Positions 224 to 37,410 of a stretch of DNA of 39,082 bases are shown here, one piece after another; the stretch's first letter is position 1, and each line of letters starts with the position of its first letter. The notes beneath the pieces are model-generated. The model worked only from the letters and a program-made list of their open reading frames with translations. It did not search any database and was not told where the DNA came from. The DNA comes from Bacteroidales bacterium (GTDB lineage: Bacteria > Bacteroidota > Bacteroidia > Bacteroidales > UBA932): the NCBI GenBank assembly GCA_021443565.1, contig JABUTS010000128.1, positions 1 through 39,082 on the forward strand. Direction: 5' to 3'. A program made the position numbers and the translations under genes.

Positions 224-874
224 ATGGTTAACTTTATCGGGGATAAACACATGACAGACATGGACTCTGAACTTCAATGGATCATCACCAGGGTGGACGG
301 GAAGATAGCATCCGTCGACCTCGACTACAACGGACTGATGAGGATAGCCTCAGTGCTCTCGGGCATGAGGCCCGGACTTTCCAAATCGAAACGCCGGAGT
401 GCAGCGGCAAAGGCCCGCGGACTTGCAGACTCCGTAACCACCGAGAAGGTTTCCACTGACGAGCTGTTCCGCATCAGCGCCGCACTTGAGTGGGAGGACC
501 TGCGCCTCTTCGGGACGGAATTCCAGATAGGAGTCTGGAGACATCTCTTCGAGCTCAACCACCACGGCGCGGAGCCGAAGCTGCTGAGTTACTCCGAGTT
601 TGCCACCATCTGCGGCAACCGTCCGGGAATACGCGCCGTGGCCCACGCCGTAGGCCTCAACCCGATTCCGGTCATCATTCCCTGCCACTGGATTATACCA
701 AAGGAGTCGACAGACAGGATTGCGGAGATAGGCCAGGACGCCCGCAGCACAATTTTCAAGGGGACCGACATCTGGATTTTCGACAGCATTGACTTCGGTC
801 AGTACGCACTTGGCACCGACGTCAAGCGGCACATACTGGGACGTGAATTCTCCTACGGTGTACCTAACGAATAA
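224..874 (+). CDS. Divergent Ogt/MGMT-family methylated-DNA--protein-cysteine methyltransferase-like protein
   Basis: GTEFQIGVWRHLFEL...SYSEFATICGNRPGIRAVAHAVGLNPIPVIIPCHWII matches the AGT domain: the RAVaxAvgxNPiPviiPCH signature is kept, but PCHR is PCHW. Start could be ATG 224 or 251. Confidence 0.8.
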   Translation: MVNFIGDKHMTDMDSELQWIITRVDGKIASVDLDYNGLMRIASVLSGMRPGLSKSKRRSAAAKARGLADSVTTEKVSTDELFRISAALEWEDLRLFGTEFQIGVWRHLFELNHHGAEPKLLSYSEFATICGNRPGIRAVAHAVGLNPIPVIIPCHWIIPKESTDRIAEIGQDARSTIFKGTDIWIFDSIDFGQYALGTDVKRHILGREFSYGVPNE

Positions 875-928: not shown

Positions 929-936
929 TATATTTG
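929..936 (+). promoter_or_regulatory. -7 box TATATTTG upstream of the surface-lipoprotein operon
   Basis: TAnnTTTG motif 30 nt upstream of the ATG at 966; it falls inside the longer ORF call starting at 924, so 966 is the likelier start. No clear -33 TTTG. Confidence 0.5.
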
Positions 937-965
937 CGACTGCTTTTGGCGTTCCACCTTATCGA

Positions 966-2840
966 ATGAAAGGCTTTATCAGGAGAATAGCACGCATAGG
1001 CTCATTCATCGCGTGTATCGTGGCAAGCTGCGCATCGCTGCACAGCTGCGTCGGTGACATTTTCCCCGACGGTCCTGGGACCGCTTCCGTGAAGGGTGTG
1101 ACGGTGGGCTTCAGTCTGGCGGGAAACACGGGCGGACCGGCCACAAGAACCGCAATCAACGAAAACGCCGACGGATTCGAATGGACACTTGGAGACAAGG
1201 TCAGCGTGTGGGCCAGGGTCCCCGGCGGGAATTTTGCATTCAGCAATCAGATTTTCAAACTCTACAAAAGAGGCCTCTTGACCACCGGCGAGAACGGGGA
1301 AATGGCATATTTCACATCCACCCTTTCTCAAGAAATGGCAAGGGGGACATATTCATATTTCCTGTGCTATCCAACCCCGGAAACGGTCAGCGGCACCAGC
1401 GTCAGTTTCAAGCTGCCTTCTGTTCAGGACGGAAGGGCTTCGGGTGGCGTGGACATAACTCTCTCCGGAGAAACCGAAGGCAGCGAGCTTAAGGCCGGAA
1501 ACGGGGAAGAGGACATAATCCCCCTTAACGCAGGCATGAAACATCTGCTGCACTTCTTCAGGTTCTACATTCCTCAGGGCGGCAACATATTGGGCGAGCC
1601 AGTGGAGAAAATAGTGCTTACCATGCCGAGGAACATTGCCGGCACAGTGAATGCGGACGTGACGAGTCCGTCTTCAGCCACTCTTGCCGACGGAGTGAAA
1701 ACCGTCACTCTGGAACTCTCTACGCCTATAGACGCGACTGTCGACATGCGAAAGTACGCTGTTGCCGGAGTCTTCCCTTCAGGCGGGGAATACGGCCCTG
1801 ACGATTTCATGGAGATAGAATTGTTTTCGGCCACAAGACACTCCCGGCTGGAACCCATAGCATTGGATGGCAGAAGTTTCGACGCCGGACACGTGACAGG
1901 CGTCATGCTCAGGCCGGAAAGTGCGGAGGACTACTTCGAAATCAGTTTCAGGCTTGACGGCAACCGCATCGGTCAGGACGTGGACAAGATCAGCCTCACC
2001 CTTCCTTCCGGCAGCGTTTGGCCCGGCACCAATTCCTCGACCTACGTGTGGGACGAGGCCGGAGTGATGAGGCTGGGCGACATGGTCACCATACGCACAT
2101 ACAGCCGGGACGCCTACAGGGCCCTTTCCGGAAAGGCCGTAATTGCCGGCTTCGAGTCGGAAGACGCCCTCGTATATCAGAATCTCACCATACCCGACCT
2201 CAGCGGCATCAACAAGACCTTGCAGATACTGAACGCGCCATACCTGTTCTTTGAAGATTTCAGCGGCATAGCCGGGGAATTCCACAGCTACGACAAGCAT
2301 GCCACGTCGAACCCGGGAGACAAGGACGGCTATCAGTTCCTGAACGGATGGTCCGGTGCCCGTGTGGGCGGATATCCCGGGACATCAATACGCATCGGTG
2401 CCCACAGGGAATCCCTCGCCACCTACCCGGCCCGCTGCGACTCGCCTTTCCTCTCAGGGCTCAAGAAAAACGCTGCAGGTTTCAGCTCAGAGGGCAAATC
2501 CATTTCACTGAACGTCACCTTCAACTATTCCATGAACAGGGAAAGCGGTGGCATCGGCACCGCCGACGTAGGTATGGAACTATATTTCGGATACTCAACC
2601 AAGAGCGGAGCCATCAGCAGCCAGGACAGCAACGGCTCCTATGGAGGCAAGATATACATGAAGGAATTCACAGGTTCCTTCACCAGCATAGAAAATGAAA
2701 TGACCCAGGTTCTCACCGGAATGGGCAACGACCGCAGGATTTCCTGGAAAACCTACTGCGAATACAACATAGGACCGAATAACAACACCTGCTTCCTTTA
2801 CCTTGACAACATCAGGGTATCGATAGCGGGAAACAGATAA
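966..2840 (+). CDS. Fimbrillin-like lipoprotein with C-terminal jelly-roll-like module
   Basis: Signal peptide plus lipobox-like Cys; fimbrillin-like VTVGFSLAG...ATRTAINENADGFEWTLGDKVSVWA...TYSYFLCYP; C-terminus FFEDFSG...NGWSGARVGGYPGTSIRIG...LYLDNIRVS. Start moved from 924 to 966 because of the -7 box. Confidence 0.6.
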   Translation: MKGFIRRIARIGSFIACIVASCASLHSCVGDIFPDGPGTASVKGVTVGFSLAGNTGGPATRTAINENADGFEWTLGDKVSVWARVPGGNFAFSNQIFKLYKRGLLTTGENGEMAYFTSTLSQEMARGTYSYFLCYPTPETVSGTSVSFKLPSVQDGRASGGVDITLSGETEGSELKAGNGEEDIIPLNAGMKHLLHFFRFYIPQGGNILGEPVEKIVLTMPRNIAGTVNADVTSPSSATLADGVKTVTLELSTPIDATVDMRKYAVAGVFPSGGEYGPDDFMEIELFSATRHSRLEPIALDGRSFDAGHVTGVMLRPESAEDYFEISFRLDGNRIGQDVDKISLTLPSGSVWPGTNSSTYVWDEAGVMRLGDMVTIRTYSRDAYRALSGKAVIAGFESEDALVYQNLTIPDLSGINKTLQILNAPYLFFEDFSGIAGEFHSYDKHATSNPGDKDGYQFLNGWSGARVGGYPGTSIRIGAHRESLATYPARCDSPFLSGLKKNAAGFSSEGKSISLNVTFNYSMNRESGGIGTADVGMELYFGYSTKSGAISSQDSNGSYGGKIYMKEFTGSFTSIENEMTQVLTGMGNDRRISWKTYCEYNIGPNNNTCFLYLDNIRVSIAGNR

Positions 2841-2859
2841 TGGAAACAAAAACAACGAT

Positions 2860-3612
2860 ATGAGAAAATCACTTACCAGAACGATGGCGAACCTGATGGC
2901 GGCCCTGGCTTTCCTTGCATCCTGCTCGGACATGGAAGACAACGGCGCCGGCAGGATACTTTTCATCGTGTCTTCAGAGTCAGAGGTCGCAGAAGTGACC
3001 AAGAGCAGCGTGGGAGACTACACACAACTGCCGGACGGAGGCGACTTCACGATTGTGGTGAAGGACTCGAAGGGCAAAATAGTCTATGAAGGGCTTGTAA
3101 GCAACTACCCCGCAGACAAGGAACTTGTTGTCGGGAACTATAACGTAACGGCATCTTATGGTTCGGTTACTGACGAGGGTTTCGGCAAGCCTTGCTTCAC
3201 CGGCTCCCAGTCTTTCACGGTGACCGGCGGTTCCACCAACGAGGTCAGCATCAGGGTTTCCCTCGCCAATTCTCTCGTAAGAGTGGTCTGCACAGACGCT
3301 TTCAGGAACTATTACACTTCATATTCCTTCACGTTGAAGACTGGTAACGGCAGTTCCATAAGTTTTGCTCAGGGAGAGACCCGGGCTGCCTTCGTGGACG
3401 CATACACCATATCTGTTGAAGGAGAACTCGTGAACCAGGGAGGAAAGGCCCAGACCTTCTCCAGGAGTTATACAAGCTCACTGGACCCAGCAACCTGCTA
3501 CACCCTGAAATTCGACGCGGGAAACATCGGAAGCGGCACGATCAGGATTTCGTTCGACAATAACGTTGACGACGTCAATCCGGGCTGGATGGAACTCAAC
3601 GACAAAATGTAG
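2860..3612 (+). CDS. DUF4493-type lipoprotein
   Basis: Lipobox FLASC|SDMED; IVSSESEVAEVTKSS...DFTIVVKDSKGKIVYEGLVSNYPADKELVVGNYNVTASYGSVTDEGFGKPCFTGSQSFTVTGG resembles DUF4493. Confidence 0.7.
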   Translation: MRKSLTRTMANLMAALAFLASCSDMEDNGAGRILFIVSSESEVAEVTKSSVGDYTQLPDGGDFTIVVKDSKGKIVYEGLVSNYPADKELVVGNYNVTASYGSVTDEGFGKPCFTGSQSFTVTGGSTNEVSIRVSLANSLVRVVCTDAFRNYYTSYSFTLKTGNGSSISFAQGETRAAFVDAYTISVEGELVNQGGKAQTFSRSYTSSLDPATCYTLKFDAGNIGSGTIRISFDNNVDDVNPGWMELNDKM

Positions 3613-3621
3613 GAGGAAACT

Positions 3622-4878
3622 ATGATGAAAAGGACATTTACCATACTTGCGGCCGCATCGGTGCTGCTTTGTTCATGCAAGGACGACCGCTTCAACTATG
3701 ACTACAAGGACAAGACCGGACTGCTCTCGCTGGACGGGTTCTCCCTGTCCATTGACAGCGAGGTCCTGACCAAGGCAACTTCCGAAGCATCCGGAGATTA
3801 TGTTCTCACCCTGCTGTCATCTGACGGAGAGCAGGTCTGGACCAAGACCTGGTCCGAGTTCAAGGCAGAACTGGCGGCCTCCCACGAAAAGGGCATATAC
3901 CTCACTGCCGGCAACTACACCATGGACGTGCGTTCAGTATCAGGGACACTTCCCGCAGCCGCTTTCGAGGCTCCGGTGTACGGTGCGGCGAAGCCTTTCG
4001 CGATTGAAGTCGGCAAGACCACGGAGCTCGGTGTCATTACCTGCAAGCTCCTGCAATGCGCCGTCCAGGTACGTTACAACGCTGATTTCCTCGGGATGGT
4101 AACCGGAGACGGAACCTGCTCGGTCGAAGTGGCCAGCGGCAGCCCGCTGGATTACGCTCTCAGCTACAATGGAGGCACCCCTACCTGCGACCTCAGGACA
4201 GGCTACTTCGCAGTGAACAACGGTGCAAACACTTCCATGGGCATCACCTTCAAAGGATCCATCGAGGGCAAGAACCAAAAGATGAAGACCTCGATAACAG
4301 GCATCAAGCCTCAGGAGCTTCACGTTGTCACCATCATGAAAAAACTTGACGAAACCGGCAACGCATCATTCGTAATAGTAATCGATGACCTTATCGCCGA
4401 TGCAGAACTTGTGAACGACGTGCGCGGCAACGAGGAAGGAGACGGAAACGACCCTCAGGCACCGGCTGGTGACGGCGGCATAGAACTCGTAAGCACTTGC
4501 AGCTACGACATCTCCGCTCCGGTAGTCGTACCGGCGGAAGGCTCGTTCCCATTCACCATGAAGGCTGTCATTCCTAACGGAGCCCGCAAGTTCACCGTGG
4601 ACATCGCATCCACCAACGAAGATTTCATAGGCTCGGTACAGCTGGTGGGCGGAACCACCCTCGACCTCATATTCCCATCTGATGCAGCTCTCGGAGTCTT
4701 CTCAATCGTTCCGTTCCCTCACGGGGAGGAGCTTCTCAACAAGACGGAAATAGACTTCGACCTTTCAGGAGCCCAGGGTCCTCTTCTCGCCTTCCCAGGC
4801 ACCCACACCTTCACGATGAACGTTGTAGATGCGAAGGGTTGCCGCAAGAGCATAGATGTTTCACTCACAGTCAGGTAA
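3622..4878 (+). CDS. DUF4493-type lipoprotein
   Basis: Lipobox VLLCSC|KDDR; LLSLDGFSLSIDSEVLTKATSEASGDYVLTLLSSDGEQVWTKTWSEF...GIYLTAGNYTMDVRSVSG resembles DUF4493. Confidence 0.7.
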   Translation: MMKRTFTILAAASVLLCSCKDDRFNYDYKDKTGLLSLDGFSLSIDSEVLTKATSEASGDYVLTLLSSDGEQVWTKTWSEFKAELAASHEKGIYLTAGNYTMDVRSVSGTLPAAAFEAPVYGAAKPFAIEVGKTTELGVITCKLLQCAVQVRYNADFLGMVTGDGTCSVEVASGSPLDYALSYNGGTPTCDLRTGYFAVNNGANTSMGITFKGSIEGKNQKMKTSITGIKPQELHVVTIMKKLDETGNASFVIVIDDLIADAELVNDVRGNEEGDGNDPQAPAGDGGIELVSTCSYDISAPVVVPAEGSFPFTMKAVIPNGARKFTVDIASTNEDFIGSVQLVGGTTLDLIFPSDAALGVFSIVPFPHGEELLNKTEIDFDLSGAQGPLLAFPGTHTFTMNVVDAKGCRKSIDVSLTVR

Positions 4879-4890
4879 GGAGGGACGGAT

Positions 4891-6714
4891 ATGAAAAAGA
4901 CAGGAATGCTGCTGCTTGCAGCCGCCATATCAGCAACTTCATGTGTGGACTACACCACCAGCGGGAACGCTGACGGAGGTCTCTCCCTCGAACTTGCAGT
5001 GAACGGCCTGCCCGAAACCAGGGCAGCCATGACAGAAACGGAACTTCTCAATTCCGCCATAGTCAGGATATACAAATCTGACTTCTCCGGCCTCGTACGC
5101 CAGTACGTCAAAGCCGATATGCCTGCGGTCCTGTATCTTCCGGCCGACGGATACCGCATTGACGTTGAAGCGGGAGAACTTGCCAAGGCGGAGCCTGCGG
5201 AAGCGTCGTGGGAGCAGATGAGCTGGAAGGGCTCTGCCAACGCCACTGTCACAGCCAGCTCAAACACCAGCGTGACGGTTACCGCCAAGGTGTGCAATGT
5301 AATCAGCAACGTCAGATTCGACCCGACCATGGCGGAGGCCTTTGAAAGCGGATATTCCCTCTCCATCGGACTGAGTGAAGGCAACAGCCTTGTGTACACC
5401 GCCGACAAGGACGGGAAGGACGGTTTCTTCATAGCCTCCGGCTTCGAGCCGTCCCTCAGCTGGCGTTTCGAAGGCACGCTGAAAAAGAACGGGACCAAAC
5501 TGACGAAGACGGGGAAAATAGATGCCGGGGAAAACGGGAAAAGATACGTTATGGGGCTCAAATACACGGAATCCGACGGCCTTCTGACCATGTCTGTCCT
5601 TGTTGACGACAGCGTGAACACCAAATACGACAACATCACCTTCATCGCGACCTCAACCGGAGTGGCGGAAACCGACCCGACCGACATCTGGGCGGGCCAT
5701 TTCAAGGCTGTCGCCGACGTGGACGAAGGGGAATATGACAAGGACAAGGTGTATTTCGAGTACAGGAAGACAGGCACGGAAAACTGGTCGAGAATCGGCG
5801 CGACGAGGGAAAGCGAGGGCAGTTTCTCGGCAAACATAGCAGAACTCCAGGCTGAGACCGAATACGAGTACAGGCTTGCCGTCACTCCTCTCTCAGGGGG
5901 CGACGAGGAGATTCTGGATGCGCCTTCGACCATAACGACAGATTCGGCGCCGGCACTTCCTAACGGCGGCTTTGAGACTACCAGCAACGCCGAAACCAGC
6001 AAATACCTGTCTCTGTACGACCCGTCTTCTTCATTCGAGGAGCTTCGCACCAAGTGGTGGGACAGCGGCAACGCAGGCTCAACCACAGTCGGATCGTCCT
6101 CCGTAATCTGCTACCCGGTCAGTGACACGCCGGACGGCAGCAGGCAGTCCATGTGCCTCCAGTCCAGATATGTGGTCATAAAATTCGCTGCCGGCAACCT
6201 TTTCAGCGGCCGTTTCGGTGATGTGGACATCAGCAGCGGAGGCGGTACCGTATACTTCGGAAGGCCGTTCAAGGGCCGTCCTACCGGTTTGAGGCTGTGG
6301 GTAAAATACTCCGGCGGAACCGTCAACCAGCAGGGTAACGCTCCTACCAGCCTCATCAAGAAGGGTGACTACGACAAGGCAATTGTCAGAATAGCCCTAG
6401 GCACATGGGACAAAAGGACGTACAAGGGCGACAACGACAGCCCTATTCTGGTCAACACCGCGGACGTTTCAACTTTCATCGACTACAATACCGACCCTTC
6501 TACAATCGCCTTGGGCGAACTCATCATCTCGTCTGACGGCAGCAACATAGCCCAGGGCTGGACAAAGGTAACCGTAGATCTCAATTACAAGGACACCAGG
6601 ACCTATCCTACCCACATAGTCGTCTCCATGGCTGCCTCCATGTATGGTGACTACTTCGCCGGCTATGACCAGAGCAAGCTCTGGGTGGACGGACTTGAAC
6701 TGCTTTACGAATAG
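4891..6714 (+). CDS. Lipoprotein with DUF4493-like N-terminus and PCMD-type (putative carbohydrate metabolism) C-terminal domain
   Basis: Lipobox ISATSC|VDYT; LPETRAAMTETE..; C-terminal LPNGGFETTSNAETSKYLSLYDPSSSFEELRTKWWDSGNAGSTTVGSSS...SRYVVIKFAAGNLFSGRF...LWVDGLELLYE, PCMD-like. Confidence 0.72.
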   Translation: MKKTGMLLLAAAISATSCVDYTTSGNADGGLSLELAVNGLPETRAAMTETELLNSAIVRIYKSDFSGLVRQYVKADMPAVLYLPADGYRIDVEAGELAKAEPAEASWEQMSWKGSANATVTASSNTSVTVTAKVCNVISNVRFDPTMAEAFESGYSLSIGLSEGNSLVYTADKDGKDGFFIASGFEPSLSWRFEGTLKKNGTKLTKTGKIDAGENGKRYVMGLKYTESDGLLTMSVLVDDSVNTKYDNITFIATSTGVAETDPTDIWAGHFKAVADVDEGEYDKDKVYFEYRKTGTENWSRIGATRESEGSFSANIAELQAETEYEYRLAVTPLSGGDEEILDAPSTITTDSAPALPNGGFETTSNAETSKYLSLYDPSSSFEELRTKWWDSGNAGSTTVGSSSVICYPVSDTPDGSRQSMCLQSRYVVIKFAAGNLFSGRFGDVDISSGGGTVYFGRPFKGRPTGLRLWVKYSGGTVNQQGNAPTSLIKKGDYDKAIVRIALGTWDKRTYKGDNDSPILVNTADVSTFIDYNTDPSTIALGELIISSDGSNIAQGWTKVTVDLNYKDTRTYPTHIVVSMAASMYGDYFAGYDQSKLWVDGLELLYE

Positions 6715-6716
6715 AA

Positions 6717-7460
6717 ATGAAGCACGGATTTCTCATAAGCTGCGCCTTTGCCGCCCTGCTGGCCTATGCTCCCGGAGCCTTTGCCCAGAAGCTTGACCGC
6801 GGTCTGTCCATCTCGTCCATGCCCACCTTCGTGGCAAAGGGCAGCTGGATGGTCGGCGGAAGTGCCAACTGGACTTTCCACGAGAACGAGAACTTCCGTT
6901 TCCTCGTGGCGGACGGAGTGAATTCTTCGGGCTACAAGGTGAATGTGAGCCCCGCCGTTTGCTATATGGTCAAGGACAACATGGGAGTAGGATTGAGAAT
7001 GGGTTATTCGAGGAGCAACCTGAAAATCGACGAGGCGGGAGTGGGAGTCGGCGACATAGGATTAGACATGGAAAACTACCATACCCTTAAGCATACCTTC
7101 CAGGTCCAGGGTATAATGCGCAACTATATACCCGTCGGCAATGCAAAGAAAATCGCCCTCTTCAACGAGGTCCAGCTCGGCTACAGGTTCGGCACCCGGA
7201 AAGTGGTGAACGGAGCGGAAGAGAAGTTCGACGGGAGTTACGGTAACATCAGGAACCTGGCCCTCAACCTCTGTCCGGGTATCGTGGCCTTTGCCAACGA
7301 CCATCTTGCGGTGGATGTGAACGTGAACATGCTGGGCCTGAGTTTCGGCAATACCGACCAGTCCCACAACCAGGTGGCCGGTGCGAGTTTCAACTCCACC
7401 GTCATGAACTTCCAGGTCAACATCCTTGCGATAGGCTTCGGACTTTATTATTATCTGTAG
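6717..7460 (+). CDS. Outer-membrane beta-barrel protein
   Basis: Signal peptide (ALLAYAPGAFAQ); alternating amphipathic strands; C-terminal aromatic GFGLYYYL; 2 nt after the preceding stop. Confidence 0.7.
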   Translation: MKHGFLISCAFAALLAYAPGAFAQKLDRGLSISSMPTFVAKGSWMVGGSANWTFHENENFRFLVADGVNSSGYKVNVSPAVCYMVKDNMGVGLRMGYSRSNLKIDEAGVGVGDIGLDMENYHTLKHTFQVQGIMRNYIPVGNAKKIALFNEVQLGYRFGTRKVVNGAEEKFDGSYGNIRNLALNLCPGIVAFANDHLAVDVNVNMLGLSFGNTDQSHNQVAGASFNSTVMNFQVNILAIGFGLYYYL

Positions 7461-7463
7461 GAC

Positions 7464-8183
7464 ATGAAGAAAAGCATAATACTCACGACGGCAGCGCTCC
7501 TGCTCTGCTTCGTTTCCTTCGGGCAGGAAGTCCGCAAGGACAAGCTCTTCATGCCTAAGGGGAATGCCGGCGCCGGACTCCAGGTTTCATATATTGACCT
7601 GGGCAGCAACGACAGCGACCTGATGATGCTGCTTCAGGGCATAAATGCCGACGGCACCTACTTCAGCTTTGCACCGTTCTTCACCTACTCGTACAGGAAC
7701 AACAAGGCGCTGGGCGCCCGTTTCAGATACTCTACGGCCAAGGCGGGAGTCTCGAACGCGGACCTAAGCCTGTTCAGCGAAGACCTGAGCCTGTCTGTCG
7801 AGAACCTCAGCGCGAAGCTGCGCTCATACCAGTTCCAGGTGTTCCGCCGTTCCTACATGGGTCTGGACAACAACGGACGCTTCGGACTTTTCAACGACCT
7901 GGTGCTTTCATACTCGAACTCCAGAAACAGTTTCATGTCCGGTGAGGACGACCTCGACGCTTACTTTCTTGCAAAGAAGGTGAAGCTGGGCATATGCCCT
8001 GGCATCATGATTTTCATACTCAACAACCTCAGCACTCATGTCTCGATGAGCATAGGAGGCGTGTCATACTCCCACACTGACTGCATCGAAAAGGGGGAGA
8101 AGGTCGGGAAGCGCGACTACATGAAAGCACACTTCGCGCCTGACGTCACCGACATATCCTTCGGCATGACATTCTATCTGTAG
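7464..8183 (+). CDS. Outer-membrane beta-barrel protein, paralogue of the preceding gene
   Basis: Signal peptide (LLLCFVSFGQ), similar length and layout; shared ICPGIM/LCPGIV and SFGMTFYL/GFGLYYYL-type segments. Confidence 0.68.
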   Translation: MKKSIILTTAALLLCFVSFGQEVRKDKLFMPKGNAGAGLQVSYIDLGSNDSDLMMLLQGINADGTYFSFAPFFTYSYRNNKALGARFRYSTAKAGVSNADLSLFSEDLSLSVENLSAKLRSYQFQVFRRSYMGLDNNGRFGLFNDLVLSYSNSRNSFMSGEDDLDAYFLAKKVKLGICPGIMIFILNNLSTHVSMSIGGVSYSHTDCIEKGEKVGKRDYMKAHFAPDVTDISFGMTFYL

Positions 8184-9794
8184 ATGAAATTCCTCCGCTT
8201 CATATCGACCTGCGCGACCGCTGCAGTCCTGCTCGAGGGCTGCATCAGGAACGACATTCCCGAGACTCCCGTACCGGGCGTCATAATCGCGCTCGAGGCC
8301 GATGGGGCGGAGTGCGAAATAGATGGGGAAAGGCGCTGTGTCATGCTCAATCTCGCAGAAGAGACGGATATACGCAACGTGACAGTAAGAAAGGTGGAAT
8401 TCAACGACAGCGGTGTGCAGTCCTCACTGCCGCTTGCAGGCACTCACGACCTGAGAAGTGACCTGAAGTTCGTCCTAAGCACCAGGAACACCGAAAGCAC
8501 CTGGACTTTGGGCGCACGGCAGGAAATCCGGCGCTGGTTCACGCTCGGCGGGCAGGTGGGCAAGACCTTCATCGACGAGGTGAACCGCAGAATCGTTCTC
8601 AAGGTTTCCTCTGACATGAACCGCAAGCAGCTTGACATCACCTCCATACACCTCGGGCCGGAGTCGCTCGTCAGCTACTCTCCCGACCCGTCCACCATCC
8701 ACGACTTCTCAAACGGCCAGGAAATCACCGTGCGCTGCCACGGCAGGGAGGAAGTCTGGACCATCTATGTGGAGAAGACGGAAACCGTGGTGGAACTGCT
8801 GGGCATCGACCCGTGGAGCAGGGTCGCATGGGTGAGGGCCAGCGGAATAGCCGGGCAGAAAAACGGCTTCCGCTACCGCATGAAGGGCGAAGAAGAGTGG
8901 ATTGAAGTGCCTGATGTCAAGGAGGACGGCGGACAGTTCAGTGCCATGATTGACGCCCTTGCACCTCTGACGGAATATGAATGCGTCGCATACTGCGGAG
9001 AAGACGTGAGCACGGAGGAACGCTTCACCACAGAAGGAGAGGCCCAGCTCCCCAACTCCGGTTTCGAGACCTTCACTCATGCAGAATCCGACAAGTACTA
9101 CTCGTTCTTTGACCCGGCCTCATCCTTCACCGAACTTCGCAGCAAATGGTGGTGCAGCGGAAACAAGGGCTCGACCACGGTCGGATCAAGCTACTGCATC
9201 ACTCTGCCTGACACCGAAGACTTCGCCGAAGGTGCAGCCTCGGCAAAACTCCAGTCCCAGTATGTGGTCATCAAGTTCGCCGCAGGCAACATCTTCTCCG
9301 GGGAATTCGACAGGACCATAGGCACTTCTGGTGGCGTAATCAACTTTGGCCGTCCTTTTGACCTCAGGCCGAGAAAGCTCAGCCTCATGCTCAAATACAG
9401 GTGCGGCAAAATCAGCGACAAGACCATGGGCGGCCACCCTGCCGACGATCCCGTGAAAGTCGGGGATAACGACCGCGCCAGCATCTGGGTTGCTCTCGGA
9501 ACATGGGATTTCCGCAAGTACGGAGGCACGGCAGACTGCCCTGTCCAGATCAACACCACCGACAAGGGCACATTCTTCAACCCTGCCGGTCCCGACGTTG
9601 TCGCCTATGGCAGCTTCATAACGGCCGAAAGCATCGAAAGCTGGACAAGGGTGGAGATTCCTCTGGACTATCTCACCACGTCCGTCCGCCCCACCCACAT
9701 AATAGTGTCCTGCGCGGCCAGCCTTCTCGGAGACTATTTCACCGGAAGCGCCGATTCCATTCTCTGGGTTGACGACCTAAGGCTTGAATACTAG
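8184..9794 (+). CDS. PCMD-type lipoprotein
   Basis: Lipobox VLLEGC|IRND; C-terminal LPNSGFETFTHAESDKYYSFFDPASSFTELRSKWWCSGNKGSTTVGSS...SQYVVIKFAAGNIFSGEF...LWVDDLRLEY, paralogous to the C-terminus of 4891-6714. Confidence 0.72.
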   Translation: MKFLRFISTCATAAVLLEGCIRNDIPETPVPGVIIALEADGAECEIDGERRCVMLNLAEETDIRNVTVRKVEFNDSGVQSSLPLAGTHDLRSDLKFVLSTRNTESTWTLGARQEIRRWFTLGGQVGKTFIDEVNRRIVLKVSSDMNRKQLDITSIHLGPESLVSYSPDPSTIHDFSNGQEITVRCHGREEVWTIYVEKTETVVELLGIDPWSRVAWVRASGIAGQKNGFRYRMKGEEEWIEVPDVKEDGGQFSAMIDALAPLTEYECVAYCGEDVSTEERFTTEGEAQLPNSGFETFTHAESDKYYSFFDPASSFTELRSKWWCSGNKGSTTVGSSYCITLPDTEDFAEGAASAKLQSQYVVIKFAAGNIFSGEFDRTIGTSGGVINFGRPFDLRPRKLSLMLKYRCGKISDKTMGGHPADDPVKVGDNDRASIWVALGTWDFRKYGGTADCPVQINTTDKGTFFNPAGPDVVAYGSFITAESIESWTRVEIPLDYLTTSVRPTHIIVSCAASLLGDYFTGSADSILWVDDLRLEY

Positions 9795-9819
9795 CCGCTG
9801 CGTCACAAAAAATAGATTT

Positions 9820-9852
9820 AAGCGCATCCTTTGTCAGGGTTGCGCTTTTTTT
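9820..9852 (+). terminator. Intrinsic terminator of the surface-protein operon
   Basis: AAGCGCATCCT...AGGGTTGCGCTT stem followed by a T-run (TTTTTTT). Confidence 0.8.
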
Positions 9853-9937
9853 GTGCGGATTTCGCCAATATTTTTGCTAATTTTATGGTTTGTAGGCTTT
9901 GGCCCCTAAAAGAACATGAAACCATAATAATTATAGC

Positions 9938-11254
9938 ATGACACTTTCTAGAAGAAAATTCCTGCAGACGACTGCAGCAGCCTCGGTATTCACGATACTG
10001 CCGAGGAAGGTGCTCGGAGCAATGAACACCGGAGTCCCGGGAGCCAACAAGTATGTTGCGCCCAGCGACCAGATTACCAAGGGACTGATCGGAACCGGAG
10101 GCATAGGCATGTCTTCCAACCACTTCACGTCAGACGACAAGTACCGTCTCGTGGCAGTATGCGACGTGGATAGGAACCACCTCGACAGGGCCGTGAAAGC
10201 CGGCGAAGCGCGCTTTGGCGAGAAACTTCAGGCCTACAGCGACTGGCGCGAGCTGGTTGCCGACCCGAATGTCGACGTTGTCCATATCGCCACACCGTCG
10301 CACTGGCACGGAATCATGTCCGTAACAGCGGCACGTGCAGGCAAGGACATCTTCTGCGAGAAGCCTATGACCAGGACCATAGCCGAAGGCGAAAAGGTGG
10401 TCGAGGAGGTGGGCCGTCACGGCCGCATCTTCAGGCTCAACACCTGGTTCCGCTTCAAGGACACGTTCTACGGACTCGGAACGACAGTGGAGCCTCTCAA
10501 GAAGCTGGTGGACAGCGGAGTGCTCGGATGGCCTCTTACGGTACGCATTTCCGGAGCGACGGGATTCGCATGGAAATTCTATTGGACCGGCAAGGAAAAC
10601 CTCATCCCAGAGCCCGTACCCGCAGAACTCGATTATGACATGTGGCTCGGCCCAGCTCCTTACAAGCCTTACAACCCTCACCGCGTCCACGGCACCTTCC
10701 GCGGATACTGGGACTATGAGAGCGGCGGACTCGGAGACATGGGACAGCACTACATCGACCCTGTGCAGTACATTCTCGGCAAGGACGACACCTATCCTGT
10801 GAAGGTGGAGGTCGACGCGCCGCAACAGCATCCCGACGCTGTAGGCACCTGGCGCAGCATCACCTACACCTACGAAGACGGCTGCCGTATCATACTCGAA
10901 GGAGAGGGCTATGAAAGCAAGGGCAAGGTTCCATATATCGAAGGACCTCTCGGCAAGGTTTACAAGGGCTTCGAATGTACCATTCCTAATGTCATGGACC
11001 TCATCGCCGAACTTCCGGACCCTACCCCGCGCCACACGGACTATCTCGAGTGCGTGAGGACCCGACAGCATTTCGCCCTGGACGAAAAGATTGGTCACCA
11101 CAGCTGCACCGTCGTCAATCTCGGCGCCTGCGCGCTCAGACTCGGACGCACACTCGAATTCGACCCGAAGACCTGCCGCTTCATCGGCGACGACGCCGCC
11201 AACCTGCTGCTCCGCCAGCCTATGCGCGCACCTTGGGAATCTTACATCTTCTAA
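9938..11254 (+). CDS. Tat-signal Gfo/Idh/MocA family oxidoreductase
   Basis: MTLSRRKFLQTTAAAS twin-arginine signal; GLIGTGGIG nucleotide-binding loop; DVVHIATPSHWHGIMSVTAARAGKDIFCEKPM family motif. Confidence 0.92.
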   Translation: MTLSRRKFLQTTAAASVFTILPRKVLGAMNTGVPGANKYVAPSDQITKGLIGTGGIGMSSNHFTSDDKYRLVAVCDVDRNHLDRAVKAGEARFGEKLQAYSDWRELVADPNVDVVHIATPSHWHGIMSVTAARAGKDIFCEKPMTRTIAEGEKVVEEVGRHGRIFRLNTWFRFKDTFYGLGTTVEPLKKLVDSGVLGWPLTVRISGATGFAWKFYWTGKENLIPEPVPAELDYDMWLGPAPYKPYNPHRVHGTFRGYWDYESGGLGDMGQHYIDPVQYILGKDDTYPVKVEVDAPQQHPDAVGTWRSITYTYEDGCRIILEGEGYESKGKVPYIEGPLGKVYKGFECTIPNVMDLIAELPDPTPRHTDYLECVRTRQHFALDEKIGHHSCTVVNLGACALRLGRTLEFDPKTCRFIGDDAANLLLRQPMRAPWESYIF

Positions 11255-11266
11255 ACCGTCAACGCA

Positions 11267-13705
11267 ATGAAAAAGAACATACTGATACTTTTTGCCCTTG
11301 TCCTGTCGCTGTCCACAGCCTTTGCACAGGACTCAAGGCAGCGCGCAAAGGAAACAATAGTCGCAGACGTGCTCGCTTCCATGCCGTCTCCTGACGCCGC
11401 AGCCTTCGACAGGAACATGGCAGACCTTGCCAAGGCAGCGCCCGCTTCAATCGAACTGCTTGCCGGAATGCTCGCTCCAGCTTCCGAAGGCAGGAACAAC
11501 CTCGTCGAGTACGCGCTCAGCGGCGTTGCTAAGTTCGCATCCAACCCTGCAAACTCACAGTACAAGGCAGCCGTCCTCGAAGGCCTCAGCAAAGGTGCCG
11601 CCGCATGTACCGACAAGTATAACAGGCAAACCATCGAATTCTACATGCGTCTTATGGGTGACGCTGCGGCAATAGTTGCCCCTGCCGCGGAAGAGGCACC
11701 TTCAAAGGCGGTTCTCGCCCAGGCAAAGAAAGCGCTCGTCCAGGGAAATTCTGGAGACATGTGCGCAGCTGCCATGAGCCTCATTTCCTCAACTGACAAC
11801 AAGGGTGCTCTCAAGCTCCTCTCCAAGGTCATGAAAAGCGAGGACAGGCCTCTCAGAAACGTGGCGATGAGCTTGGCTTCAGACAAGGCTGGCATTCCTG
11901 CAGTCGCATCCCTGCTCACCAAGGCATATCCGAAACTCTCGGATGCAGCCAGGACCGATGCAGTCAACTTCTTCGGCGCCAACGGCATAGCCGATGCAAT
12001 AGACCTCGTGGTTCCTGCAATGAATGAAGGCGGAGAACTTGGGCAGGCAGCGATTATGGCAGCAGGAAGGATAGGGGGAGAGGAGGCCCTCGCGGCCCTC
12101 ACCGGACTGCTTGCAAAAGGCGGTGACAAGAGCGCCCTCGCATTTGCCGCACTGAAATCGTTCAAGGGTGACATCAAGCCGGCCCTGCTCGGAGTCCTCT
12201 CCGGCGACAAGGGAAACATCAACGTCCTGAAACTCGCTTCTGCGATGCACCTCACCGCAGCTTCACCGGAACTGTTCTCCCTTGCATCTTCTTCGGATGC
12301 CGATCTGCGCGAACAGGGCATATCCCTGCTTCCGGGCCTTGTAACCTCAGCAGACGCCTCAAGGATTGCCGAGCTTCTCAACAAAGCCTCCGACAAGGAT
12401 GTGAAGCCTCTCCAGACCGCCCTGCTTGCGGCTCTCAAGAATGAGACCCCAGCCAGCCTGTTCAAAACAGCGAAGGATCTCGCCTCTTCAAGCAGCAGAC
12501 CTGCGCTCTATTTCCCGGCAATCGCTTCTTCGGGCACTGACGAGGCTGTGGATTACCTCTGCAGCGCATACAGGCAGGGTGACGAAAGCGCTCTGGCCTC
12601 TCTCGCAACCATCGAAAACATCAAGGTAGCTCCGGTGCTCTTCGAGGCAATCTCCGGCGGCAATCTTTCGCTGATAGACAAGTACGTCGGCATAGTCGGC
12701 AGGCATGAAACCGACCTTGGCAAGAAGTCCTTCGAACTCGCACGGGTGCTCAAGCTGTCCGGCGACGCACGACAGAAGGCTAGGATACTCGGCGAGATTG
12801 CCAACATCCCTACCATGAAGGCCTTCCTCAACGCAGGCTCATTCATCGACAGCGACAACGAAGACATAGCATACGCTGCTGCAGATGCCTTGAGGAAGAT
12901 TGCCGCAAAGACAGAAGAGGAACTTGACTACGGAACCATGACGGAGTATCTCGGAAAAGCCCAGACCATCTTCAGGGCCACAGGCGATGCCGACGACGGC
13001 TATGCAGCAGACGAAATCGGGAAAATTCTCCGCAACGCCGAGCCGGTGGCCGCAGCAGAGCTCAGCGCAGAGGAAAAGAAGCAGGGCTTCGAGATGCTTT
13101 TCGACGGCAAGGACCTTTCCAAGTGGCAGGGTGACCTCGAGGGCTACACCCCTGTCAACGGAAGCATACTCGTTTCAGCGGAATACGGCGCCGAGGGCAA
13201 CCTTTATACGAAGGAAAAGTACAAAGACTTCATCTTCCGCTTCGAGTTCTGCTTCCTCCGTGAGGGAGAGAACAACGGTGTGGGCATCAGGACCCCTATG
13301 GGTGTGGATGCCGCATACGAAGGAATGTGTGAGGTTCAGATTCTTGACCACGATGCTCCGATTTATGCAAACCTCAGGGAATATCAGGTACATGGCTCGG
13401 TCTACGGAGTAATTCCGGCCAAGAGGATAGTCCACAAGCCTCTCGGCGAATGGGGAACTGAGGAAATCGTCGTGAAGGGCAACCACATCAAGGTGACCGT
13501 AAACGGAGAAGTCATAGTTGACGGAGACGTGAAGAAGGCATGCAAGGGCCACAACGTCGCTCCCGACGGAAGCTCGAACAATCCTTACACCGTCGACCAC
13601 AGGAATCATCCGGGCTTATTCAACAAGGAAGGCTACATTTCCTTCTGCGGACACGGCGCAGGTCTCAAGCTTCGCAACATCCGCGTCCTCGACCTGTCAA
13701 AATAA
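11267..13705 (+). CDS. HEAT-like repeat protein with C-terminal DUF1080 / 3-keto-disaccharide hydrolase-type domain
   Basis: Signal peptide (ALVLSLSTAFAQ); long Ala/Leu-rich helical repeats; C-terminal EEKKQGFEMLFDGKDLSKWQGD...YKDFIFRFEFCFLREGENNGVGIRTP...CEVQILDHDA...HPGLFNKEGYISFCGHGAGLKLRNIRV is DUF1080-like. Confidence 0.88.
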   Translation: MKKNILILFALVLSLSTAFAQDSRQRAKETIVADVLASMPSPDAAAFDRNMADLAKAAPASIELLAGMLAPASEGRNNLVEYALSGVAKFASNPANSQYKAAVLEGLSKGAAACTDKYNRQTIEFYMRLMGDAAAIVAPAAEEAPSKAVLAQAKKALVQGNSGDMCAAAMSLISSTDNKGALKLLSKVMKSEDRPLRNVAMSLASDKAGIPAVASLLTKAYPKLSDAARTDAVNFFGANGIADAIDLVVPAMNEGGELGQAAIMAAGRIGGEEALAALTGLLAKGGDKSALAFAALKSFKGDIKPALLGVLSGDKGNINVLKLASAMHLTAASPELFSLASSSDADLREQGISLLPGLVTSADASRIAELLNKASDKDVKPLQTALLAALKNETPASLFKTAKDLASSSSRPALYFPAIASSGTDEAVDYLCSAYRQGDESALASLATIENIKVAPVLFEAISGGNLSLIDKYVGIVGRHETDLGKKSFELARVLKLSGDARQKARILGEIANIPTMKAFLNAGSFIDSDNEDIAYAAADALRKIAAKTEEELDYGTMTEYLGKAQTIFRATGDADDGYAADEIGKILRNAEPVAAAELSAEEKKQGFEMLFDGKDLSKWQGDLEGYTPVNGSILVSAEYGAEGNLYTKEKYKDFIFRFEFCFLREGENNGVGIRTPMGVDAAYEGMCEVQILDHDAPIYANLREYQVHGSVYGVIPAKRIVHKPLGEWGTEEIVVKGNHIKVTVNGEVIVDGDVKKACKGHNVAPDGSSNNPYTVDHRNHPGLFNKEGYISFCGHGAGLKLRNIRVLDLSK

Positions 13706-13800: not shown

Positions 13801-14400
13801 TCATCTGTGCCTGAGGGCAAGTTCCCTCTCCAGTTCCGGAATGCTTACGCCCATCTCCTCGAGGAGTACGAGGTAGTGGTAGATGAGGTCGCATGCCTCA
13901 TAGACAAAGCGGTCGCGGTTGCCGTCCACGGCCTCTATGATGCTCTCCGCAGCCTCCTCGCCCACCTTCTTGCTGATTGCCTTGACTCCCTTGATGAACA
14001 GCTTTGTGGTATAGGAGCCTTCCGGCATCTTTTCGTGCCTGTCCCTGATGAGTTTCGCCAGGGTGCGCACAAAGCCCTCATCTTCCGGAGTGTCGAAACA
14101 TGAGGTGGTGCCGCGATGGCAGGTGGGTCCTATAGGATCTGCCTTTATCAGAAGGGTGTCTGCGTCGCAGTCCCTGTACATCTCCCGCACGTTGAGGAAG
14201 TGGCCGCTGGTTTCGCCCTTGGTCCAAAGTTGTCCCCTCGTGCGGGAAAAGAAGGTCACACGCCCTTCCGCGACTGTCCTGTCGAAAGCCTCGCGATTCA
14301 TGTAGCCAAGCATCAGCACCTTCAGGGTGTCTGCATCCTGCACTATGACGGGCAGCAGGCCGTCGGCGCATTTAGAGAGATTGAATTCATCAAAAGTCAT
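13801..14400 (-). CDS. hisIE: Bifunctional phosphoribosyl-AMP cyclohydrolase / phosphoribosyl-ATP diphosphatase
   Basis: MTFDEFNLSKCADGLLPVIVQDADTLKVLMLGYMNREAFDRT...SGHFLNV...HRGTTSCFD plus HisE-type EEAAESIIEAVDGNRDRFVYEACDLIYHYLVLL. Start set to 14400, ATGA overlap with hisF, instead of the longer ORF. Confidence 0.93.
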   Translation of the reverse strand: MTFDEFNLSKCADGLLPVIVQDADTLKVLMLGYMNREAFDRTVAEGRVTFFSRTRGQLWTKGETSGHFLNVREMYRDCDADTLLIKADPIGPTCHRGTTSCFDTPEDEGFVRTLAKLIRDRHEKMPEGSYTTKLFIKGVKAISKKVGEEAAESIIEAVDGNRDRFVYEACDLIYHYLVLLEEMGVSIPELERELALRHR

Positions 14401-15218
14401 ATTCTGTCCTCCTGTAATCTTACTTCGATTCCCGCCTCGCGCAGTCTGGCCTTGAGCTCGCAGATTCTTATCTCCCCGTAGTGGAAGATGCTGGCGGCCA
14501 GAGCAGCGTCCGCACATCCTTCTGTAAGCACATCGGCTATATCCTTCACGCTGCCCGCACCGCCCGAGGCGATTACAGGTATGTCCAGCATGCCCGTAAG
14601 CTGAGAGAAGAGTTTGCATGGATAACCGGCCTTGGTGCCGTCGTGGTCCATGGAAGTGAGCAGTATCTCTCCCGCACCCCTCTCCTGCGCCTCGTGCGCC
14701 CACGAGAAAAGTTCCCTTTCAGTCATGCGTCGTCCCCCATGAGTCGACGCATGCCATAAGCCGGCCTCGCCAAAAGCTTCGAAACCCGGCTGAACGCCAG
14801 CACCCGGAAGCGGGCCGTCGCGTCTTGCATCTATGGCGACAACGCAGAACTGGCTGCCGTACCTTGCCGCTATCCTGTCTATGAGCGAAGGATCGGCTAT
14901 AGCTGCGCTGTTGATGCTTATCTTGTCTGCACCGGCGTCGAGCAGGCGTGACGCGTCATCGAGGGAAGATATGCCCCCTCCTATTGTGAAGGGAATGTTT
15001 ATCCTGTCTGCTATGCGGCTCACGAGAAGGGTGAAGGTCTGCCTTTCCTCCTGGGTGGCGCTGATGTCCAGATAGACCAGTTCGTCCGCACCCTCGGCAG
15101 CATAATATGCGCCCAGTTCCACGGCATCCCCGACCTCCTTCAAGCCCTCGAAATTGATTCCCTTGACCGTCATTCCGTTCTTGACGTCAAGACATGGTAT
15201 AATTCTCTTTGCAAGCAT
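14397..15218 (-). CDS. hisF: Imidazole glycerol phosphate synthase subunit HisF
   Basis: MLAKRIIPCLDVKNGMTVKGINFEGL...GADELVYLDISAT...PFTIGGGISS. Confidence 0.96.
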   Translation of the reverse strand: MLAKRIIPCLDVKNGMTVKGINFEGLKEVGDAVELGAYYAAEGADELVYLDISATQEERQTFTLLVSRIADRINIPFTIGGGISSLDDASRLLDAGADKISINSAAIADPSLIDRIAARYGSQFCVVAIDARRDGPLPGAGVQPGFEAFGEAGLWHASTHGGRRMTERELFSWAHEAQERGAGEILLTSMDHDGTKAGYPCKLFSQLTGMLDIPVIASGGAGSVKDIADVLTEGCADAALAASIFHYGEIRICELKARLREAGIEVRLQEDRI

Positions 15219-15221
15219 AGC

Positions 15222-15950
15222 CTATCTGCCTTCAATGAAGCTTCTGATGTCGTCCAGAGCTATTCTGTTTTCATATATCGCCTTGCCCACTATTACCTTC
15301 CTGAGCCCGGAGGCGTCAAGCCTCTCTATGTCTGCCATGGAAGCTATGCCGCCGGAAACGGTGAAATCCACCATGGGATACTTCTCCTGCAGACGGGTGT
15401 AAAGCCCGTCTGATGGACCCTGCAGCATTCCGTCCCTGGAAATGTCCGTGCATATCACCTGACTCAGTCCGCAAGGCAGGAAAGCGTCCACCAGTTCATC
15501 TATTCCCAAAGCAGTGCTCTCCAGCCAGCCGTTGACAGCCACGGCCCCATCCTTGAGGTCAGCTCCGAGCACCATCTTCCCCGGACCGAAAGCCGTCAGC
15601 CAGACCTTGAAGAGTTCAGGGTGAAGGGCCGCCGTACTGCCCACGACCGCATAGTCTCCTCCAGCGCTGAACACGCTCCTGAGGGCTGTTTCATCCTTGA
15701 TGCCGCCGCCCCATTCGAGTTTCACCAGGGAGAGGCCGGCAAGTTTTTCCAGCGTCCTGAGATTGCGCGGGCCGGACGCCTTGGCCCCGTCGAGGTCCAC
15801 AAGATGGACGCGGGTCACTCCGCAGTCGGCATAACGCCTCACCATGTCCTCAGGCACGGCATCATATACCTTCTGCCGAGAATAATCCCCCTGTGACAGG
15901 CGCACGCAACGGCCATCAATGATGTCTATGGCAGGTATTATCTGTATCAT
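15222..15950 (-). CDS. hisA: 1-(5-phosphoribosyl)-5-[(5-phosphoribosylamino)methylideneamino]imidazole-4-carboxamide isomerase
   Basis: MIQIIPAIDIIDGRCVRLSQGDYSRQKVY...VHLVDLDGA...VSGGIASMADI. Confidence 0.96.
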   Translation of the reverse strand: MIQIIPAIDIIDGRCVRLSQGDYSRQKVYDAVPEDMVRRYADCGVTRVHLVDLDGAKASGPRNLRTLEKLAGLSLVKLEWGGGIKDETALRSVFSAGGDYAVVGSTAALHPELFKVWLTAFGPGKMVLGADLKDGAVAVNGWLESTALGIDELVDAFLPCGLSQVICTDISRDGMLQGPSDGLYTRLQEKYPMVDFTVSGGIASMADIERLDASGLRKVIVGKAIYENRIALDDIRSFIEGR

Positions 15951-16534
15951 AGGGCAAGGAAATTGGCAAGTATCCTCTCACCCGCATCCCCGCTTTTCTC
16001 CGGATGGAACTGGGTGCCGTAGAAGTTTTCATATTTCAGCGCCGCACTGAACAGCCTGTTCCCGTGACGGCAGGTCGCGATGGTGTCACTGCAGAGGCTG
16101 GGATAGTAGGAATGGACGAAGTAAACGTGGGTGCCGCCCTTCATGCCCCTAAACAGCTTGCCGTCCAGATTGCCTATGGTGTTCCATCCCATGTGCGGGA
16201 CCTTCGCGTCGGGGGCGGCCTCGAAACGGCGCACGTGGGAGTCGAAGATATTCATGCACACTGCATTGCCTTCTTCGCTGTCGCGGCACATAACCTGCAG
16301 TCCCACGCATATTCCCAGCACCGGCTTGCGCAAGCCCCTTATGAGTTCAACCAGGCCGGCCCGGCGGAGATTCTCCATAGCCTCTGCTGCATTTCCCACT
16401 CCGGGCAGCAGGACCTTGTCGGCCCCTGCTATGGTCCCGGGATCGGCAGTCACCACATATTCTGCCCCGAGCCTTGTGAGAGCATTCTCCACACTACGGA
16501 GATTGCCCATTCCGTAATCGATTATGGCTACCAT
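15947..16534 (-). CDS. hisH: Imidazole glycerol phosphate synthase subunit HisH
   Basis: MVAIIDYGMGNLRSVENAL...VLLPGVGNAAEAM...PVLGICVGLQVM...VPHMGWNTI...YGTQFHPEKSG. Confidence 0.96.
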   Translation of the reverse strand: MVAIIDYGMGNLRSVENALTRLGAEYVVTADPGTIAGADKVLLPGVGNAAEAMENLRRAGLVELIRGLRKPVLGICVGLQVMCRDSEEGNAVCMNIFDSHVRRFEAAPDAKVPHMGWNTIGNLDGKLFRGMKGGTHVYFVHSYYPSLCSDTIATCRHGNRLFSAALKYENFYGTQFHPEKSGDAGERILANFLAL

Positions 16535-16536
16535 TA

Positions 16537-17616
16537 CTAAAGCACTCCCTTGCTTGAAGGCAGTTCCTGGCTGAAGACATTGCGCCTGACCGCAGACCGC
16601 AATGCCCTCGCATAAGCCTTGAACACGCCTTCGATAAGATGATGGTTATTCTCCCCCTTGGCCTCTATTCGGAGATTGCACCTTGAAGCCACGCAGAGAG
16701 ACTGGAAAAAGTGTCTGAACATCTCCGTAGGCACGTCTCCGACATATTCCCGGGAAAAAGTGACGTCCCAGGCAAAGTCTGCGCGGCCGCCGAAGTCCAA
16801 CAGTACCATGGCCCGGCTTTCATCCATTGGAAGCACGAAGCCGTAACGCTCTATCCCCCTCTTGCTGCCGAGGGCCCGGTGTATGGCCTCGCCGAGGGCA
16901 ATACCCACGTCCTCAATGGTATGGTGCTCGTCCACCTCCAGATCGCCCTTGCAAAGGGCAGTGAGGCTGACACCGGCGTGGTGGGGAATCTGACTAAGCA
17001 TGTGGTCGAAGAATTTGAGACCAGTGTCTATGCGGGTCTCTCCCCTGCCGTCAAGGTCCAGTTCAATGCATATCTGGGTTTCGGCGGTGCTTCGCTCAAT
17101 TACGGCTCGCCTCTCGCCCGAACGTATGGTCTCGACTATTCTGTTCCATGACTCAACCGGGTGCTCCGAGTCTATGCGGAGGCCTTTCGCGCCGAGATTG
17201 GCGGCTAGTTTCATGTCGGTTTCCCTGTCGCCTATCACATAGGAGGCGGCAAGGTCGTAATCTCCCGAAAGGTACTTTCCGAACATGCCCGTCCCCGGCT
17301 TGCGGTCAGGATGGTTGTCAGCAGGGATGTGGCGGTCAATCAGCTGGTCGTCGAAGACCACGCCTTCTCCAGCGAGCACTTCCAGCATGAAGTTGTGGTA
17401 AGGCCAGAAAGTTTCCTCCGGATAGCTGGCCGTTCCCAATCCGTCCTGGTTGGAGGCAAGAACGAACTCGAAGCCTAGCCCGGTAAGGGCCTTGAGGGCA
17501 CCTATTGCCCCGGGAACGAAGTGGAACTTGTCCCAGCTGTCGACCTGCTCGTTCTGTTCTATGGACGGCTCTATGATGATGGTGCCGTCGCGGTCGATGA
17601 ATAATGCCTTTTTCAT
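16537..17616 (-). CDS. hisB: Bifunctional histidinol-phosphatase / imidazoleglycerol-phosphate dehydratase
   Basis: N-terminal HAD LFIDRDGTIIIEP; C-terminal GLKFFDHMLSQIPHHAGVSL...DEHHTIEDVGIALGEA. Confidence 0.96.
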   Translation of the reverse strand: MKKALFIDRDGTIIIEPSIEQNEQVDSWDKFHFVPGAIGALKALTGLGFEFVLASNQDGLGTASYPEETFWPYHNFMLEVLAGEGVVFDDQLIDRHIPADNHPDRKPGTGMFGKYLSGDYDLAASYVIGDRETDMKLAANLGAKGLRIDSEHPVESWNRIVETIRSGERRAVIERSTAETQICIELDLDGRGETRIDTGLKFFDHMLSQIPHHAGVSLTALCKGDLEVDEHHTIEDVGIALGEAIHRALGSKRGIERYGFVLPMDESRAMVLLDFGGRADFAWDVTFSREYVGDVPTEMFRHFFQSLCVASRCNLRIEAKGENNHHLIEGVFKAYARALRSAVRRNVFSQELPSSKGVL

Positions 17617-17618
17617 GT

Positions 17619-19921: not shown

Positions 19922-19924
19922 GGT

Positions 19925-33004: not shown

Positions 33005-33042
33005 AATTAATGCAAATTTAGTCAAACTTGTATAATTATAGC

Positions 33043-37322: not shown

Positions 37323-37410
37323 AATGAAAGTTTTTGTTGCAAAGTGACGGAATTGCTTCCGTTTACGGAAAATGAAAACGGATAAATTTGAAAAAAGGGC
37401 ATACAGAGCT

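Follow-up and report, generated by a model that had tools for sequence, protein, structure and literature searches.

What do the seven co-oriented genes near the start of contig JABUTS010000128.1 of a Bacteroidales bacterium (assembly GCA_021443565.1) build together? The contig was analysed as one stretch of 39,082 nucleotides (nt), called the window here, and the genes in question encode five lipoproteins (genes 1-4 and 7) and two outer-membrane beta-barrels (genes 5 and 6). An earlier interpretation made from the letters alone, the sequence-only reading, had taken them for a dedicated surface assembly. We found that the seven-gene block is a real conserved unit. Whether the operon encodes a clostripain-matured, pilus-like lectin assembly with gene 7 and the barrels as its anchor is, for the whole chain of argument, an evenly balanced question in our judgement. 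No mention of DUF4493, PF14900 or PF13201 and no prior description of the operon was found in the literature searched, which excluded subscription journals.

The gene-7 family was scanned across named genomes and gave 156 relatives, and the counts of loci refer to the best 80 of these 156. The loci were picked through gene 7 only, which left the remaining six genes unselected. All seven genes stood in identical order in 61 of the 80 loci, in other genomes. Most of the remaining loci were cut by contig ends, carried a DUF4493-PCMD protein where gene 1 would stand, or had the barrel pair inverted upstream; where the pair was inverted, divergent and upstream of the lipoprotein genes, it was nevertheless kept (L104, L105, L107, L109 and L110). 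Homologues of the window's flanking genes were encoded in none of the 80 loci, and the boundaries of the block are therefore those of the operon. The sequence-only reading had named the lack of a conserved neighbourhood as the outcome that would count against it, and the neighbourhood search gave the opposite. Its idea of a dedicated surface assembly, conserved, uncharacterised and constant in gene order, holds, although its interpretation as a whole was only partly supported.

Searches based on gene 5 reached the same neighbourhoods as the scan with gene 7. Across the order Bacteroidales, a barrel was present at E <= 1e-8 in 50 of 393 genomes (~33 of them strong, ~13 families), and most of the 20 barrel neighbourhoods inspected in the order had the same core. 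At its smallest, the operon was reduced to gene 7 and one or two barrels (L042, L176 and L177). The relatives came from Ca. Cryptobacteroides, Alistipes sp., Rikenellaceae, Bacteroidales and Barnesiella, many of them from herbivore gut metagenomes. Distribution within the genus was patchy, with the operon in about half of the sampled genomes, many of which are incomplete. Two operon types (L031 and L032; L040, L043 and L044), which have two barrels or one, occupied the same site in different species, bounded by a gyrB-like gene and by a common gene downstream, and look like alternative alleles.

The predicted limits of transcription agreed with this unit. The sequence-only reading had placed seven co-oriented genes with small gaps between a promoter box and a terminator, and the open reading frames at 966-9794, the box and the hairpin confirmed that layout (Table 1); its tally of lipoproteins (five) and barrels (two) was likewise right. 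The intergenic gaps from gene 1 to gene 7 were 19, 9, 12, 2, 3 and 0 nt. The reading frame of gene 1 is open from 924, and ATG966 is its likely start because the promoter box lies just upstream of it. The sequence TANNTTTG stood no more than 110 nt ahead of gene 1 in 44 of 69 loci, where 5.4 were expected; for no inner gene did the count exceed 6 of 69-80 loci (1.2-2.6 expected). At the other end, RNA of 9795-9865 folded at -22 kcal/mol (z -2.37). Pfam found no SusC/SusD, glycoside hydrolase or sigma/anti-sigma gene in the seven-gene unit, as had been claimed, and the seven genes are without the SusC/SusD pair by which a polysaccharide utilisation locus is recognised. Genes 1, 5 and 6 themselves gave no Pfam match.

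A lipobox Cys was present in all five lipoproteins. About 25-32 residues past this Cys, genes 1-4 have in common a T-[R/K]-[small] motif that gene 7 does not share. We counted T[RK][ASTGV] in the 65 residues that follow the lipid Cys and compared it with expectation: the motif was found in 38 of 59 gene 1 proteins (9.3 expected), 56 of 77 for gene 2 (13.8), 59 of 76 for gene 3 (12.8) and 65 of 86 for gene 4 (12.0), and was not enriched in gene 7, with 19 of 83 (13.0). An alternating hydrophobic stretch from the lipid Cys to the motif was near-universal. The gene 2 model placed a strand at residues 30-39 (block predicted local distance difference test score, pLDDT, 94), followed by a loose loop that holds the motif (block pLDDT 66). 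Mature Mfa1, Mfa3 and Mfa4 begin after Arg49, Arg43 and Arg54, respectively, and the anchor Mfa2 is without a site; the first strand of the three is lost on cleavage, and a strand from the next subunit is believed to fill the space it leaves (PMC5789003). Judged from sequence and model, the lipoproteins that genes 1-4 encode would be precursors whose first strand is followed by a basic cleavage site, one of the features that mark a type V pilus.

An Arg/Lys-specific maturation protease in the genome is another such feature, and it was found in the form of peptidase C11 (clostripain family). C11 was present in the window genome and in 20/20 and 24/24 operon-bearing genomes, two sets that may have a few genomes in common, and the copy in the window genome retained SHG and DAC. 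Gingipain C25 was not found in the window genome and was nearly absent from the genus. For gut Bacteroidales, a surface clostripain has been named as the pilin protease (review PMC12632263). The basic residue of the motif agreed between genes of one locus in 202 of 225 gene pairs, compared with a permuted mean of 114 and with 122 from composition alone (largest 156). This agreement is suggestive of a shared processing enzyme and is no proof of one. When C11 sequences were set against the use of Arg or Lys, few full-length copies were available and the comparison was confounded by clade. Across ~60 loci (L050-L127), genes 1-4 were all Arg in some lineages and all Lys in others, against the trend of R/K composition in those lineages.

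The AlphaFold2 model of gene 2 (pLDDT 85.8) was compared with the PDB by Foldseek. There were 32 matches at E <= 0.001, mostly Bacteroidales adhesin or fimbrial proteins, with a best E of 4e-8; they included 3gf8 (BthFim2B), 3pay (BovFim2B), 5nfi (Mfa2), 4h40, 4gpv, 3up6, 3ufi and 4eps. BthFim2B and BovFim2B have been called putative anchors (PMC5789003). DUF4493 thus resembles the two-domain type V pilins in its modelled fold and is not a close match to them. Among relatives of gene 1, three of seven matched Mfa_like_1 (best 1.6e-8), and with the DUF4493 model these relatives point to subunits with the predicted two-domain pilin fold of type V pili. The absence of recognisable Fim/Mfa partners, stated in the sequence-only reading, holds at the level of sequence but not given the predicted pilin-like fold of DUF4493 and the pilin-like cleavage motif in genes 1-4. 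Two profile comparisons were not used as evidence of homology: with DUF4493 the alignment of gene 1 was confined to ~90 columns at the N-terminus (Prob 58), and with gene 4 it covered the signal region alone. The C-terminal tail of gene 2 was conserved and flexible, and gene 2 is the candidate for the shaft. DUF4493 also occurs outside the operon: a separate single-gene DUF4493 lipoprotein of 399 amino acids lies downstream of a helicase-like reading frame on another contig of the window genome (C158, locus L004, 1279-2478, plus strand), and single DUF4493 genes of ~350-460 amino acids recurred in most genomes of the genus.

Residues 33-199 of gene 7 matched the DUF4960 surface protein of 8a9y (9e-6, profile), the glycan-binding protein of the levan utilisome. 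Gene 7 shares with it this N-terminal homology and the position of a lipoprotein beside an outer-membrane barrel; it differs in its C-terminal domain, in the small size of the barrels and in an operon without SusC/SusD. The PCMD domains that end genes 4 and 7 were homologous to 4jrl, 4het, 3hbz and 3s30. In BT2081 (3hbz) the PCMD-type domain folds as a galactose-binding-like jelly roll that contains a deep pocket, and Asp259 and Asp338 were proposed as catalytic (PMC2954218). Like the rest of this family (PF13201), the operon PCMDs have the C-terminal jelly roll and its pocket: equivalents of BT2081 N200, F202, F206, D338 and F340 were conserved across 91 gene-7 and 88 gene-4 proteins. In the same proteins the D259 position held mostly Q, S, R and K, with Asp outside the eight commonest residues. 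Since D259 is replaced while the pocket residues are kept, binding is favoured over hydrolysis, and of the Asp pair expected of a glycoside hydrolase only Asp338 is kept. The operon PCMDs further differ from BT2081 and its relatives in belonging to a fixed seven-gene unit and in their fusion partners, which are DUF4493 in gene 4 and other N-terminal domains in gene 7.

The two barrels are paralogues, with 25% identity between gene 6 and gene 5 (8.5e-19), and their relatives matched OMP_b-brl (1.7e-5). The gene 5 model (pLDDT 85.7) had ten strands and was closest in Foldseek to OmpW (1.9e-5) and OmpA. It shares the predicted fold of these small barrels but has ten predicted strands instead of eight, and the operon barrels are paired paralogues dedicated to one operon. 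Being small and OmpW/OmpA-like, they fit a role as an anchor better than one as a wide pore for export. Wide secretion pores were considered as a role for them and are disfavoured by the predicted fold.

Genes 1-4 would then give surface lipoprotein precursors with a pilin-like fold, as predicted for DUF4493 and as Mfa_like_1 suggests for gene 1. At the outer surface, their products would be cut at T-[R/K]-[small] and shed the lipidated N-terminal strand, with the clostripain-family (C11) protease of the genome as the most likely enzyme. Loss of the strand would open a groove, so that the subunits could join by strand exchange and form a short hetero-oligomer. Ligand-binding C-terminal domains would come from gene 4 and probably also from gene 1, with gene 4 as the tip-adhesin candidate. 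Gene 7, without an enriched cleavage site, would keep its lipid and serve with the two small barrels as the outer-membrane anchor, and it may itself bind glycan. We infer each of these steps, namely surface export, cleavage by clostripain, strand exchange or polymerisation, anchoring by the barrels and gene 7, and a glycan ligand.

This proposal shares much with the type V pili, Fim and Mfa of Porphyromonas gingivalis and BthFim and BovFim: lipoprotein precursors, the predicted DUF4493 fold, Mfa_like_1 in gene 1 relatives, a basic cleavage motif after the Cys, one lipoprotein without the motif, and C-terminal domains of ligand-binding type on the tip-like subunits. In contrast to them, the pilins of the operon would be DUF4493 proteins, two barrels are co-transcribed, and the anchor candidate is a PCMD protein instead of Mfa2/FimB. 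Because the classic Mfa2/FimB anchor is absent, we did not file the operon as a type V pilus. It is possible, with rather less than even confidence on our part, that it represents a distinct and widespread class of surface appendage of uncultured gut Bacteroidales, with DUF4493 strand-exchange subunits, PCMD lectin tips, an uncleaved PCMD lipoprotein on a dedicated barrel pair, and an Arg/Lys site that co-changes between lineages in all four subunits.

Several results weigh against a pilus-like assembly. The template modelling (TM) scores of the type V pilin matches to gene 2 were 0.30-0.46, below 0.5, and the matches included unrelated beta-sandwich proteins; no sequence-profile link from DUF4493 to known pilin families was found, and the relationship is one of fold only. 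Genes 2 and 3 do not have the conserved Trp that shaft pilins are reported to carry near the C-terminus, and every subunit is single-copy, with no obvious repeated shaft gene. The Mfa2/FimB anchor family (PF08842) was not found in the window genome or in the seven-gene unit. Of 18 genomes of the same genus that have no operon, 16 also carried C11. The within-locus R/K agreement rests on few independent switches, 4-6 per gene on the tree; independent pairs were almost never opposite, and they are too few for phylogeny-controlled significance.

The main rival is a static surface complex for glycan capture, in which five lipid-anchored lectins around two barrels would be neither cleaved at the N-terminus nor polymerised and would resemble the accessory binding proteins of a SusCD complex. 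The DUF4960 match of gene 7, the pair of PCMD jelly rolls, whose pocket residues are conserved, and the barrels within the same transcript are all consistent with it. It leaves unexplained the pilin-like fold, the motif excess in genes 1-4 and the lack of that excess in gene 7, and the operon has no barrel of SusC size; we consider it rather unlikely. A role of the barrels as a dedicated translocon, by which the lipoproteins would be exported or flipped to the cell surface, would fit their being the most constant partner, kept even when inverted, and their weak Foldseek matches to the polypeptide transporter FapF. The FapF TM-scores were ~0.25-0.3, however, the best matches were narrow OmpW/OmpA-type barrels, and single-barrel loci exist, which makes this role improbable.

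Patchy presence in the genus, and the one- and two-barrel operon types at the same gyrB-side site in different species, could reflect a maintained antigenic or phage-receptor locus selected for variability over a single ligand, but conservation is strong in the order of the genes, in the motif and in the residues of the pocket, and we regard such selection as very improbable. We give hardly any more weight, and if anything a little less, to genes 4 and 7 being glycan-degrading enzymes, with PCMD as a glycoside hydrolase and the other genes accessory. The PDB relatives of PCMD are labelled putative glycoside hydrolases and the Asp pair of BT2081 was proposed as catalytic, yet the Asp259 position holds Q, S, R, K and others while Asp338 and the aromatics stay.

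Table 1. Positions of the operon features in the window, with predicted products and cleavage sites.
Feature	Position	Strand	Product and basis	Predicted cleavage
Promoter box TATATTTG	929-936	+	Bacteroidota -7 type, TAnnTTTG; from sequence and enrichment before gene 1	
Gene 1	966-2840	+	Fimbrillin-like lipoprotein with C-terminal beta-rich domain; lipobox Cys28	After Arg61 (codon 1146-1148)
Gene 2	2860-3612	+	DUF4493 lipoprotein (Pfam 6.6e-41); predicted type V pilin-like two-domain fold	After Lys48 (codon 3001-3003)
Gene 3	3622-4878	+	DUF4493 lipoprotein (Pfam 9.8e-26) with C-terminal region of ~150 residues	After Lys51 (codon 3772-3774)
Gene 4	4891-6714	+	Lipoprotein: DUF4493 (3e-33), linker domain, PCMD (5.1e-34)	After Arg44 (codon 5020-5022)
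Gene 5	6717-7460	+	Outer-membrane beta-barrel of ~10 strands, OmpW/OmpA-like (AlphaFold2, Foldseek)	
Gene 6	7464-8183	+	Second outer-membrane barrel, paralogue of gene 5 (alignment)	
Gene 7	8184-9794	+	Lipoprotein, CIxNDLPYP start: DUF4960-protein-like N-terminal domains, linker domain, PCMD (Pfam 3.4e-36)	
Intrinsic terminator	~9821-9853	+	AGCGCA...TGCGCT hairpin, then T-run	

Elsewhere in the window, 224-874 (plus strand) encodes a 216-amino-acid protein with an Ogt alkyltransferase-type DNA-binding domain at residues ~98-163 only, its N-terminal half having no recognised domain. Past the terminator, 9938-13705 (plus strand) encodes a GFO_IDH_MocA oxidoreductase with a twin-arginine-translocation-like (TAT-like) start, followed by a protein that combines HEAT repeats with a 3-keto-disaccharide hydrolase domain; the two look like a 3-keto-glycoside pathway pair. 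A histidine biosynthesis cluster (13801-20776) and a GH20 enzyme with an F5/8-type-C-like region (20996-22924) follow on the minus strand. Two minus-strand reading frames, 30548-33025 (825 amino acids) and 36054-37532 (492 amino acids), gave no Pfam match.

With this operon, DUF4493 and PCMD, domains of unknown or putative function, gain a testable role within a conserved surface system of Ca. Cryptobacteroides and its relatives, gut lineages known for the most part only through metagenomes. For the fimbriae of P. gingivalis no assembly helper protein has been identified (PMC5789003). A pilus-like unit that keeps its barrels in the operon would make the anchoring of such polymers directly testable.

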